64,000 nucleotides of DNA, from contig CP087221.1 of the NCBI GenBank assembly GCA_020912385.1, positions 62,001-126,000 of the forward strand, read 5' to 3'. The position numbers were made by a program, and so were the translations under genes. The notes beneath the pieces are model-generated. The model had not been told where the DNA came from. It saw only the letters and a list, made by a program, of their open reading frames with translations, and did no database searches. The stretch is from Neofusicoccum parvum (Eukaryota > Ascomycota > Dothideomycetes > Botryosphaeriales > Botryosphaeriaceae). This document shows positions 45,512 to 55,392 of the stretch, in pieces; the stretch's first letter is position 1; the number at the start of each line of letters is the position of its first letter.

Positions 45512-47720
45512 TCACTCAAAGCCGCCTGGCATGATCGAAGCCCGCTGGTTGGAGTCCTCGGTGGCAACCGATTTCTTCTCGTCATCATCCTCGGCCTTAA
45601 CTACTGGCGTTGCCGTCTTCTCCGACTCGATCTCGGGAGTCTCGGCCGGTTGTGTTTCGGATTCCGCTCGCTTGTCGTCAGCCTCCTTGTCAGCTTCGGC
45701 GGTGTCGTCTGTCGGCCGCTCGTCAAGAGACTTTCGCATCTCGCTTTGGAGTTGCTCCGCCGCTTCCGTCTCAATTCGGCGCTCGTCTTCCGAGTCGAGC
45801 GCAATCGCGGAATCCTGCTTCTGTTCGAGGCCAGACTCGACGTCCGTAATCGTCACAACAGTTCTCCCGATGTCGATTCTTTTCTCCTGCTTGCCGTAAT
45901 TCAAGGGGTCTTCCTCGCCCTGGCCTTCCTGACTCGTGCCTTTCTCCGCGTCCGGAGCCGAGTCAGCCGCACCCTTCTCTTCCTGACTCAGTTTCAATTC
46001 GCTGTCGACACTTTTTCTCGGCTCGGCGGCCCCGCTGCGCCGCTTCTCCACCATCGGACTCTTCGGACTGGTGTTCGGATGTATGTAGGCGGGTATAACT
46101 CCGCCGCCAATACGCGCCCAGAACATGCGCTCGCGAAGCCGGACGCTCTCCTCCCAAGCGCTCTTCTCTTCGTCGCCGTTTTCGGCGCGCCAATGTCCGT
46201 CGCGGCACAGGCGCAAGAAACCAATGTAATCGCAGCAGCTCCGAACACGACCCAGACAGAAATCGCATAGCGGATACCGCTGCGCATCTTTTTCATCGGA
46301 TGTCCTGAACCTGTGCTTGCGCGCGTAGGGATCGGTACCATCTTTGTTCATAACCTTGGAAACCCGATTTTCGCCACAGAGGCTGCAGGCAAAAACAGGG
46401 CCGCGGTACCTGGCGTAAGGAGGTTGCGGTTCGATGGTCAGCGACCCAGCTGTCATACTGTTGAGAACGGTCCGGCGGGCCAGCCAAGAAAGACCGGGGG
46501 CGTTGTCCAAGCGAAGGGTCGGCTCGATATCTTCCGTCAAGGCTCGCTTGTAAAACTTGATTTCCTTTAGGGCAGGTAAGATTGAGCCGGTTTCCTTGTT
46601 AACAGAAACGACCGATTTCGGCAACGACGTTTCAGAGCTGTTAGTGGCAGTGGGTTGCAGGCTAAGACTTGCGGTCGAAATGTTCGCCAACGATCCGAGA
46701 CCCATGACATTGAGGCCGCCGTAGTTCCCGCTAGCGGTACGGGAGTTTGGCGTTGAGACGTGAGTTTTGGCAGTTCGTAAAAGCTCCTGGAATTCGCTAT
46801 AGGCGTCGATATCCGTGCGCAGGACCGGGCTGATAAGGTGAGTGAAGTGCAGGGGATGGGCTGGCTCTACTTCTTCGTCATGGGGAGTGTTAGGAGTGAG
46901 ACTTGCTCTCTCAGACGCGCGGCTTGACCGGTCGGCGGGTACAACGGCGGGCGTTGAAGGCGCTGTGGAAGTGTGAGTATTCGTGGCGGTCGTCTCTTTG
47001 TCGTCGGTTTCCGCAGTGATTGCCGCCATAACTTCCTTGAGGTCGCGAAGCTGCTCTTGTTGCGAGGCAAGTAGCCCCTCAGTATCTTTGAGTTGGGCCT
47101 TGAAATGTTCAGTCCTCCGGTCAGCTGCTTCCGTATCTTTCCTTGCTGCTGCCACCATCTAAAACTGGTCAGCGCCTGGCTTAGGTGCACGTTGCAGCAT
47201 TACGAACCGTATTTGCTTCCTGAAATAGTGCAGTAGTCAGGGTTTCGAGCTCATTCTCAATCCTCTTCTTCTCATGGTCAGCGGCATATCGCGCCTTCTT
47301 CTCCTCCAGCAATTGTTTCCGCAGGCCCATCTCCATGCTGTCGTAGTCATCCTTCTTCACCATGCGCCGCATAATACGCTCGTGCTCTTGCGCATTAGCT
47401 TCCAACAGCTCGATCCGCCGGCGCGCCATTTCCAGTTCCGCCCGGGCCTGTTGCAGATTGTCGTCGAGATTCGTTTGGTGATTGATGGCGTTGATCAGCT
47501 TCGTGCTCAGCGTCGCGACCTCATCGTTCAGGTCGGGGTGGCGCGGCGTCTCCGGGCGCTCTGCACTGGAGGATCCTAACCGGCTGGGACTCGGCGTGCG
47601 CGGATCGGGGATGGTGTTGAGAATGCCGGATTCCGGGCGGCCCAGCATGGAGCGCGCAGGGCCGGGGGAGACATTGCGCGGCAGGGCGGGCGTCGACGTC
47701 GACTTGGTGAGGGCCTTCAT
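45512..47720 (-). CDS. SEC2: Sec2-type Rab guanine-nucleotide exchange factor
   Basis: Exons 47720-47208 and 47158-45512 (719 aa). The 49-nt intron has the unusual donor GTTCGT but a good GCGCTGACC branch and TTTAG acceptor. It joins LTTALFQEANT to MVAAARKDTEAADRR, reconstituting the conserved end of the Sec2 coiled-coil exchange domain (residues about 65-185; ARAELEMARRRIELLEANAQ, EKKARYAADHEKK). This domain activates the Sec4/Rab8 GTPase on secretory vesicles for polarised exocytosis, important for hyphal tips. The middle contains a cysteine-rich block (FACSLCGE, YPLCDFCLGRVRSCCDY) known from fungal Sec2 proteins. The C terminus is acidic and disordered. Confidence 0.9.
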
Positions 47721-53611: not shown

Positions 53612-53791
53612 GGCTCAGTGGTCTAGTGGTATGATTGTCGCTTCGGGTACCAGCTCCCACGCCTCTTAGAGGTGTTGAAAGCTTCATACGCTTGAATTGT
53701 GACAGGCCCCGGGTTCGGTAAGTTTCGATGTTCGATCCTTATGCGAGTTCCAGTTAACTAACAGTTAACCATCAGATCCCCGGCTGAGCCC
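53612..53791 (+). tRNA. tRNA-Pro(CGG) with two introns, one in the T loop
   Basis: Acceptor stem GGCTCAG (53612-53618) pairs with CTGAGCC (53784-53790). A normal D arm carries the A box TGGTCTAGTGG. Anticodon stem GTCGC/GTGAC frames a loop with anticodon CGG (53644-53646). A canonical intron of 50 nt (53648-53697) follows the base after the anticodon. The T stem is CCGGG (53709-53713) and CCCGG (53779-53783). The T loop TTCG/ATC is split by a second 58-nt insertion. With both removed, all four stems close and the length is normal. T runs (CTTTTTG) just downstream are a Pol III terminator. CCA is not encoded, as expected. Confidence 0.9.
53718..53775 (+). other. Spliceosomal-type intron in the T loop of tRNA-Pro(CGG)
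   Basis: 58 nt beginning GTAAGT and ending CATCAG, with TTAACTAACAG (branch-site CTAAC) 14-20 nt before the end. It lies exactly between TTCG and ATC of the T loop. It interrupts the exonic B box. It carries GTTCGATCC at 53730-53738, a full match to the B-box consensus GWTCRANNC, which could restore TFIIIC binding. The equivalent insertion in tRNA-Pro(AGG) has the same layout. Confidence 0.8.
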
Positions 53792-55251
53792 CGCTTTCTT
53801 TTTCTTTTTGTTTTGCGGTTCCCCGCAGCACCGATCCTACCGCGCACTCTTTTATTAAAACAGATCACAAGCCACCAAGCGACGCTCTTGTTGCTTCAAT
53901 TACAACTGTGTGTGTACTCGTCATGTTGAAGAGTGCAAACGAGGGCTCCCTTCGTGGGTGGTGCTCTTTTTTTGGGGGCAGTCTGGGACTTTACCATAAA
54001 CACACTATGCAGGAAATGGGTTCAGTCGTTATGCCGCACATTGACAACGCTCTCGAACACACTCCGAAGTTTCTCAAGGGCATTGGCACGGTGCTGCGGA
54101 GTGACGAGGACGTCGAGTGCGGCAGTAACGAGCATTTCGTAACCACTTGTGCGGCAGTAACGAGCATTTCGTAACCACTTGCGCGGCTATCAAGGCTTAG
54201 ACTACTGCGACAAGTCGCTAAGAACTTGTCGGATCCAATTATAGAAGTTTCACCGAGTCACAATCTTTGCGCGATGGGTGTGGAGGAAATGAGCACCGCG
54301 CATCGTTGACGTTCCAGATTGTCGATCCGAAAGTCTCGTAGATATGAGATAAAGCAGCAACTTCGAACGTCGCGAGTAAAATGAAGGCGTGGAATTCCCG
54401 GTGATTGAATGAATTTTATATTGCCATGATGTCATTGGCGGTGCGATGAGCAACACCTTGAGGGCTGCGTCCCGCGCATTCAACGTATGAGTCTCACAAG
54501 TCCGGGAGCATCGGGCGGGATTGATTTGATAAGTACTCATGAGTCTGAGTATGCAACTGCGAAAGAAAAGTCTGTAGTTGACGGAGACCGTTGCTGTGTT
54601 GGGGCTGTGCGATGTCGGTGACAGTGGAGATTGGCCTCTCCGGGACTCCTTCCTGCCAAATTCTAGCCTGAAGCCAGTTCGCTCGCACACGCTCAACACA
54701 GTCACCATTGGCGAAGCTAGCCGCTGAATTCTTCGGAGCTGCTCAAGTGTTTCTAAACTCGCTCTGCCGATCTGCACTGCCTGATCCACGTGTTGCACAT
54801 CTACTGCTGTTGCCTTCCAGCACGCACAAAGTTGAACTGTTTGCCTGATTCTCTTCTCAATTACCCAGGGTCCGTCAAAAGTGGGGGAGAGCTGGAGAGT
54901 AAGTTTGCCGGCTTCATCGATGGGCTGTTGTGTTCATACCTCGAGACCGCAGCTTTTCCTTTCACTCGCTGGAAACGCTCGGTTTTATCCCGCTTGCTTC
55001 TTCGCATCTACACAGCATTCTCTACTCGTTCAAAAGCTAAAAGAACGAAGTCCATTCTGACTCATTCTGCACTGCCGTACTTCCTTTCCTCGCATCTTGC
55101 TCTCTGGAGACTCCTGTTGCCGCCTCTAACTCAGACCTTATCAATTTCCCGACCGCTCCTCGGGTAAGTCGGCAAAATATGAATTAGCCTCGACGACTTG
55201 TTCAGTACAGGTCTTGACAGCTACAGCAAAAAGCAAAAATAAAGATGTACT
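53792..55251. other. spacer between the two tRNA genes, no supported gene
   Basis: Contains a 32-bp perfect tandem duplication at 54117-54180. Minus-strand frames at 54250-54798 have some protein-like stretches in two different frames but no start or family, possibly an old gene remnant. Confidence 0.4.
54117..54180. repeat. 32-bp perfect tandem duplication
   Basis: Unit GTGCGGCAGTAACGAGCATT... occurs twice without mismatch (54117-54148 and 54149-54180), a recent duplication. Confidence 0.95.
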
Positions 55252-55392
55252 GGGTCTTGCCGCGGATCTGATGGATTTGTTAGAATGTGTTTTGGACTCA
55301 GAGTCGAACAGAAAGCTTACCGAACGCGGGGCCTCTCGCAAGCAACTCAGGGTGTGCCCTAAGCGAGAATCATACCACTAGACCACAAGACC
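55252..55392 (-). tRNA. tRNA-Pro(AGG) with two introns, one in the T loop
   Basis: Read leftward: acceptor GGTCTTG (55392-55386) pairs with CAAGACC (55259-55253). The D-arm and A-box sequence is identical to that of tRNA-Pro(CGG). Anticodon stem CTCGC/GCGAG frames anticodon AGG (55360-55358). A canonical 16-nt intron lies at 55356-55341. The T stem CCGCG/CGCGG closes a TTCG/ATC loop that is split by a 53-nt insertion (55320-55268). TTTTT follows about 10 nt after the 3' end. The acceptor and T stems differ in sequence from the other gene yet remain fully paired, which argues that the gene is functional and not a pseudogene. Confidence 0.9.
55268..55320 (-). other. Spliceosomal-type intron in the T loop of tRNA-Pro(AGG)
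   Basis: 53 nt, GTAAGC at the start, TTCTAACAAA before the end and CCATCAG as the acceptor. It has the same insertion point as in tRNA-Pro(CGG). A perfect B-box match GTTCGACTC lies on the minus strand at 55309-55301. The exonic B box is interrupted at GTTCG. Confidence 0.8.

Follow-up and report, generated by a model that had tools for sequence, protein, structure and literature searches.

Spliceosomal introns occur in the ribosomal RNA (rRNA) genes of lichen fungi, and introns are known in the U6 genes of fungi other than Schizosaccharomyces pombe. In S. pombe, U6 contains a messenger RNA (mRNA)-type intron, with the B box inside the intron (Frendewey 1990, title; passage in PMC10484740). 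Transfer RNA (tRNA) splicing is listed as spliceosome-independent in a passage of a 2026 review (PMC13149111) and, according to passages of PMC4090602 and PMC3978253, inserts at noncanonical positions in Guillardia are 3–24 nucleotides (nt) long, and archaea and Cyanidioschyzon use a bulge-helix-bulge. Here we analyze a stretch of 64,000 nt from the fungus Neofusicoccum parvum (GenBank assembly GCA_020912385.1, contig CP087221.1, positions 62,001–126,000; hereafter the window, whose coordinates are counted from its first letter), which contains a tRNA-Pro(CGG) gene with 58 nt inserted in its T loop. Judged from its sequence, this insert is very probably a spliceosomal intron (mRNA-type and U2-like) in a functional tRNA gene transcribed by RNA polymerase III (Pol III), and it belongs to a set of at least 22 in 20 tRNA genes.

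An earlier sequence-only reading of the window had proposed that this Pol III gene contains an mRNA-type intron, and this proposal appears to be the best fit to all the tests run. Such an intron had also been presented there as new, with U6 as the nearest precedent. Among the matches listed from open-access PubMed Central papers (subscription papers lie outside this search), none describes mRNA-type introns in tRNA genes, and S. pombe U6 remains the nearest case. No such introns are mentioned in the available passages of PMC11782384 or of the Botryosphaeria dothidea genome paper, which gives 137 tRNA genes for that fungus (PMC7325678).

The tRNA-Pro(CGG) gene and the proline family

The gene lies on the forward strand at 53,612–53,790, with its discriminator base at 53,791, and has two introns of different kinds, as judged from the sequence and from ARAGORN run on the gene joined across the T-loop insert. 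Its A box (a name taken from general knowledge), TGGTCTAGTGG, is intact (53,619–53,629), and the anticodon CGG called by ARAGORN in the joined gene occupies 53,644–53,646. An ordinary anticodon-loop intron of 50 nt follows between tRNA positions 37 and 38 (53,648–53,697; ARAGORN i(37,50)), of the endonuclease type by its position. The mRNA-type insert, delimited from the sequence and an alignment of inserts, interrupts the T loop between positions 57 and 58 (58 nt; 53,718–53,775). In the insert table and alignment it begins with the 5′ splice site GTAAGT (53,718–53,723), includes a second B box, GTTCGATCC (53,730–53,738), has the branch site CTAAC at 53,758–53,762, with its A 14 nt from the insert end, and finishes in CATCAG, the 3′ splice site CAG being at 53,773–53,775; a further match to YTRAY, TTAAC, lies closer to the insert end than CTAAC. 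Downstream in the sequence, a run of five Ts (53,799–53,803, same strand) is a candidate Pol III terminator.

In the unspliced window, ARAGORN finds no tRNA gene and Rfam gives no match at the gathering threshold. When the insert is removed, ARAGORN calls the gene tRNA-Pro(cgg), and the joined tRNA pairs all seven positions of the acceptor stem and all five of the T stem. The sequence-only reading had described a tRNA-Pro(CGG) gene with an ordinary anticodon-loop intron and a T-loop insert carrying GT, CTAAC, and CATCAG, the removal of which restores a perfect T arm; the sequence and ARAGORN on the joined gene agree with it on each of these points. The boundary of the window insert can be slid by one base; in the CGG copy on contig C5 (TTCA/GTAAGT..CAG/ATC) no slide is possible, and GT-AG is the only fit.

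We searched the genome, which comprises 43,992,428 bases in 18 contigs (C numbers denote contigs), for related genes. A DNA search with the window gene found two CGG paralogs, of which the C5 copy is 79% identical, and both contain the insert with its signals kept. A pattern made of the proline A box and anticodon, with up to three mismatches allowed, had 10 matches and none in the reversed control; these are eight Pro genes (3 CGG, 1 TGG, and 4 AGG) and two Ala(CGC) genes, and all eight Pro genes have a T-loop insert at the identical position. When an uninterrupted proline T arm was sought, the single match was a Pro(TGG) gene on C5, in which the T arm is whole and a 59-nt GTGAGT..GACTAAT..CCAG insert interrupts the A box between positions 10 and 11. 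The 3′ end of this insert, CCAG, followed by TCTAGTGG, re-forms an A-box-like sequence. Thus, an mRNA-type insert is present in all nine Pro genes found, eight times in the T loop and once in the A box, and this is also the outcome of the check that the sequence-only reading had asked for, namely whether intact proline genes elsewhere mark these copies as relics. No Pro gene was seen among the 48 tRNAs read, some by ARAGORN and some by eye, of the 49 listed by Rfam. The Rfam tRNA search scored 63 of 860 candidates, the inventory of tRNAs and inserts being incomplete and its counts lower bounds. Scans for fungal Pro genes elsewhere gave no match in viral contigs and, in genome contigs, three matches to metagenome-assembled genomes with bacterial or archaeal titles.

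Four of the nine Pro genes found (CGG, AGG, CGG, and TGG) lie within 56 kb of C16 (C16:115600-171600), a region that takes in the window and extends past it. An apparent tandem copy of the Pro(TGG) gene on C16 (L015) lies no more than about 200 nt downstream of it; this copy includes the insert and shows many C-to-T and G-to-A changes that, by eye, resemble repeat-induced point mutation.

Signals, boundaries and promoter elements of the inserts

Beyond proline, inserts were found in Ala, Arg, Leu, His, Val, and Glu genes, which makes seven amino acids in all. The final table holds 22 inserts of 52–59 nt in 20 genes, at eight positions (10/11, 19/20, 20/21, 24/25, 25/26, 30/31, 57/58, and 60/61); position numbering, as well as the identities of Ala(AGC) and of the Val gene on C14, was assigned by hand. 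One of the two Ala(CGC) genes, on C4, has a T-loop insert and the other, on C6, has none, and all three Leu(CAG) genes found have an insert at 25/26. A T-loop-insert pattern demanding an inner B box had 13 matches (one in the reversed control), namely nine genes already known, Arg(CCT) on C2, Ala(AGC) on C4, which has a D-loop insert in addition to that in the T loop, and two non-tRNA sequences. Three patterns combining an A box with a donor site had 8, 2, and 23 matches, against 4, 4, and 44 in the reversed controls. Enrichment over the control is thus clear for 13 versus 1, slight for 8 versus 4, and absent for 23 versus 44, and for the latter two patterns tRNA identity rests on the whole gene and not on the pattern. 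These A-box-plus-donor patterns added D-loop inserts in Ala(AGC) on C11 and His on C12, Val(CAC) on C14 (at both 24/25 and 60/61) and on C16 (at 24/25), Glu(TTC) on C16 (at 30/31, within the anticodon stem), and a second Arg(CCT) gene on C10; their remaining matches were already named genes or non-tRNA sequences. The second of the three, aimed at the A box of TAGC-type tRNAs, was the one with two matches, neither of them a tRNA, and four in the reversed control.

All 22 tabled inserts match GTNNG[TC]..[CT]T[AG]A[CT]..(4-12)..[CT]AG. The 5′ site is GTAAGT in 16 of them, the branch site is CTAAC in 17, CTAAT in four and TTAAC in one, and the branch-site A is always 10–14 nt from the insert end, two CGG copies having a further YTRAY nearer to it. 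In dinucleotide shuffles of the 16 inserts known at that stage, a similar pattern was matched by 0–11 of 20,000 shuffles of each insert (2 of 20,000 for the window insert). Alignment of nine inserts at 57/58 (eight Pro and one Ala) shows invariant GTA.G, B box TTC.A..C, CTAACA, and AG, whereas the rest diverges. The T-stem halves that flank these inserts pair in 45 of 45 cells of the alignment, with three of the five pairs changed on both sides. After removal of the inserts from the 20 genes, every acceptor pair (140 of 140) and every T-stem pair (100 of 100) is formed, and ARAGORN gives the correct isotype and anticodon for 17 of the 20 joined genes versus none of the 20 unspliced ones.

Paralogs without the insert provide empty sites. 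Seven comparisons, covering six of the 22 inserts, were available: Ala(CGC), the Ala(AGC) T loop against two paralogs, the Ala(AGC) D loop of two genes against one paralog, the Arg(CCT) T loop against the C10 copy, and Val(CAC) at 60/61. Offset 0 fits in all seven, and for Ala(CGC) and Val it is the only offset that does. The inserts therefore combine the features by which U2-type introns are recognized (GT..AG with the 5′ consensus, YTRAY, conserved signals, a restored product, and empty sites), and none of them is at the 37/38 position that characterizes introns of the endonuclease type. Every sequence test run points to the spliceosomal kind.

An insert at 57/58 cuts the Pol III B box. A TTCRANYC of their own, 13–15 nt from the insert 5′ end, is present in all 11 inserts found at this position and in none of the 11 elsewhere. 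Two of the former (Ala(AGC) on C4 and Arg(CCT) on C2) were found by the pattern demanding an inner B box, by which T-loop inserts without one may have been missed, and leaving these two out gives nine of nine versus none of 11; because eight of these nine belong to related Pro genes, the cases are not independent. Runs of at least four Ts occur within 60 nt downstream of all 20 genes, a count made with no chance control.

Some further resemblances between inserts were seen. The T-loop inserts of Ala(AGC) (L053) and Pro(AGG) on C8a (L016) are almost identical over their first 17 letters, which hints at intron transfer between tRNA families. Both Ala(AGC) D-loop inserts (L053 and L091) contain CACTTCGAA followed by A or C and then TC, a weak resemblance to a B box that falls below the motif used. 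U6 has three matches in the genome; one of them (L103, C2:2956570, minus strand) has a 61-nt GTTCGT..CTGAC..TAG insert with no inner B box, which the copies on C16 (L101) and C5 (L102) lack.

The window contains a second proline gene of this type, overlooked in the sequence-only reading, 1.5 kb from the first. This tRNA-Pro(AGG), recognized by the A-box and anticodon pattern and by analysis of the joined gene, is on the reverse strand at 55,253–55,392 (discriminator base 55,252), and the insert table gives it a 53-nt T-loop insert, GTAAGC..GTTCGACTC..TTCTAAC..CATCAG, at 55,268–55,320 on the same strand. Three protein genes of the window were aligned to their relatives, which placed one intron in each of two reverse-strand genes, a cytochrome P450 gene (58,864–58,934; 71 nt, GTACAT..TTGAC..TAG) and a Sec2-like gene (47,159–47,207; 49 nt, GTTCGT..CTGAC..TAG), and none in COQ4. 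The Sec2-like protein is 83% identical to Macrophomina and Lasiodiplodia proteins, and the P450 is 100% identical, over 86% of the query, to a P450 of N. parvum UCRNP2, so that the proteins of the window assign it to the Botryosphaeriaceae. Since the signals of these two introns are weaker than those of the tRNA-gene inserts, the claim of the sequence-only reading that the insert has the signals of neighboring protein-gene introns holds for kind and size, but not letter for letter.

Rival readings of the inserts

The alternative that survives best concerns where the inserts came from: they could be copies of a mobile introner-like element landing in tRNA genes. Introner-like elements are known in Dothideomycetes (passage of PMC4457414), and the near-identity of the Ala(AGC) and Pro(AGG) C8a T-loop inserts over their opening 17 letters might be a trace of one. 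However, whole-gene DNA searches with three of the 20 genes matched only tRNA genes (3/3, 2/2, and 7/7) and no repeat family, and inserts of different families have little in common beyond their signals. We consider this origin unlikely; as it concerns origin, it is compatible with spliceosomal removal.

A second alternative is that the inserts are ectopic tRNA introns cut by the tRNA splicing endonuclease, with GT, CTAAC, and AG being incidental. Ectopic introns in the T and D arms do exist in archaea, Cyanidioschyzon, and nucleomorphs, some with no known splicing motif (passages of PMC4090602 and PMC3978253), nearly all the genes considered here also have an ordinary anticodon-loop intron, and three of the four central pairs of a bulge-helix-bulge can be drawn in five of the 22 inserts. 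A strict 3-4-3 bulge-helix-bulge with the full 4-bp central helix, the only geometry to which this count applies, nevertheless fits none of the 22, and the consensus fold of the nine aligned inserts has no internal helix and only two extra pairs at the edge of the T loop. Moreover, the letters that are conserved are those of the splice sites and the branch site, whereas eukaryotic endonuclease introns have no clear local motifs (passage of PMC4090602). Endonuclease cleavage of these inserts is thus improbable.

Slightly less probable still is that the genes are tRNA pseudogenes or assembly oddities with short insertions, dispensable to the cell. According to a passage of PMC4090602, insertions in the D and T arms of eukaryotic tRNA genes are mostly supposed to mark pseudogenes, because only one of many synonymous genes is affected. 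The Arg(CCT) gene on C10 looks damaged, the Pro(TGG) gene on C16 has its C-to-T and G-to-A changed duplicate, and insert-free copies exist for other families, namely Ala(CGC) and Ala(AGC). Against this, an insert is in every Pro gene found, with no Pro gene among the 48 Rfam matches read, and all 20 genes have whole acceptor and T stems. The anticodon stems of the CGG genes change compensatorily (GTCGC/GTGAC in the window versus CACGC/GTGTG in the C5 copy, both sides changed, by eye). In all eight paralog pairs compared, the rest of the gene (exons and anticodon intron) is more alike than the insert: Pro(AGG) genes on C8a and C10 are identical at 87 of 87 positions of the rest of the gene and at 40 of 62 columns of the insert, and for Leu(CAG) on C5 and C17 the figures are 109 of 109 and 45 of 60.

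Finally, it is hardly credible that the inserts are retained, giving an odd functional tRNA or another Pol III RNA, because, although those at 57/58 are conserved in place with a B box and could be promoter parts only, the splice-site and branch-site letters are invariant though unneeded for a promoter, more than 50 extra nt in the T loop would block its contact with the D loop (general knowledge), and inserts also occur at sites where no B box is cut.

Two other candidates were rejected: misassembly, given 22 separate inserts, most of them clearly different in sequence, and a self-splicing group I or II intron, given the length of 52–59 nt and the lack of an Rfam match in a scan of the window only.

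Several observations weigh against a spliceosomal intron in these genes. When the joined window tRNA is folded to minimum energy, the result is not a cloverleaf. ARAGORN miscalls three of the 20 joined genes (Ala(AGC) twice and Val on C14), as it also miscalls the intron-poor Ala(AGC) paralog, and it accepts nearly all joins shifted by 1–3 bases, so that it is no proof of the exact boundary, which is given by the paralogs. Five of the seven empty-site comparisons fit also at −1, because one base is repeated, and the His insert has no usable empty site, the other His gene (L121) being too different. The Arg(CCT) gene on C10 (L070, C10:1506307, minus strand) has an intact T arm and a D-loop insert, GTAAGT..CACTAAC, with no AG where the tRNA resumes; this copy may be dead or decayed, otherwise spliced, or misread, and its insert, which would be the 23rd, was left out of the table of 22. 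For splicing, the exons are very short, with a 15-nt 3′ exon plus trailer at 57/58 and a 10-nt 5′ exon in Pro(TGG) on C5. A Pol III precursor has no m7G cap. All comparisons are of DNA within one genome.

Proposed processing and comparison with known systems

Taken together, these data make it likely that tRNA synthesis in this genome is spliceosome-dependent, with mRNA-type introns occupying eight positions in the genes for tRNAs of at least seven amino acids, pervading the proline family, and perhaps acquired via reverse splicing into the near-universal T-loop site TTCR/A; introns that destroy the B box would carry a replacement promoter at a fixed place, and two splicing systems would act in order on one pre-tRNA. 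TFIIIC would use the A box and the intron-internal B box, and Pol III would thereby transcribe the interrupted gene. While the T-loop intron is present, neither the T arm nor the elbow can form, and for this reason its removal from the nuclear precursor by the spliceosome would probably precede both end trimming and cleavage by the tRNA endonuclease. RNase P and tRNase Z would act next, as would the endonuclease, which would take out the ordinary 37/38 intron. The inserts may have originated by reverse splicing into the shared T-loop site, by gene conversion, or from an old introner-like element.

As far as could be found, tRNA genes are a new home for spliceosomal introns. The introns of tRNAs and those of the spliceosome are taught as separate worlds, and here one pre-tRNA seems to need both. 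Since the searches yielded no proline gene lacking such an intron, this fungus would need the spliceosome to decode proline, and tRNA finders would miss or misname insert-bearing genes. The promoter-in-intron layout would show how a Pol III gene survives an intron within its own promoter. With paralogs that differ in the presence of an insert, it becomes possible to test directly for the recent gain (or loss) of introns in a structural RNA, and these tRNAs would be compact natural substrates for finding the minimum uncapped exon length that the spliceosome handles.

The lichen rRNA genes resemble these tRNA genes in having mRNA-type introns in a structural RNA gene outside the reach of RNA polymerase II, but their transcripts are made by RNA polymerase I, are not tRNAs, and have no internal promoter at stake. 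Ordinary eukaryotic 37/38 tRNA introns are present in nearly all of the same genes and differ from the inserts in their position, in the absence of clear local signals, and in their removal by the Sen endonuclease and a ligase (passages of PMC4090602 and PMC13149111). The tRNA genes of Guillardia nucleomorphs, Cyanidioschyzon, and archaea are likewise cut in the D, anticodon, and T arms, some by several introns (passages of PMC4090602 and PMC3978253), whereas the inserts described here are 52–59 nt long, follow GT..YTRAY..AG, and have no strict bulge-helix-bulge. In contrast to the presumed pseudogenes considered in the passage of PMC4090602, the whole proline set found is affected. The inserts at 57/58 resemble the case of S. 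pombe U6 in that an intron of the spliceosomal type, with a B box of its own, interrupts a Pol III gene, and a U6 copy of this genome has an insert as well; the difference is that here the genes concerned are tRNAs of seven amino acids, interrupted at eight positions, and that nearly all of their precursors also contain an endonuclease-type intron.
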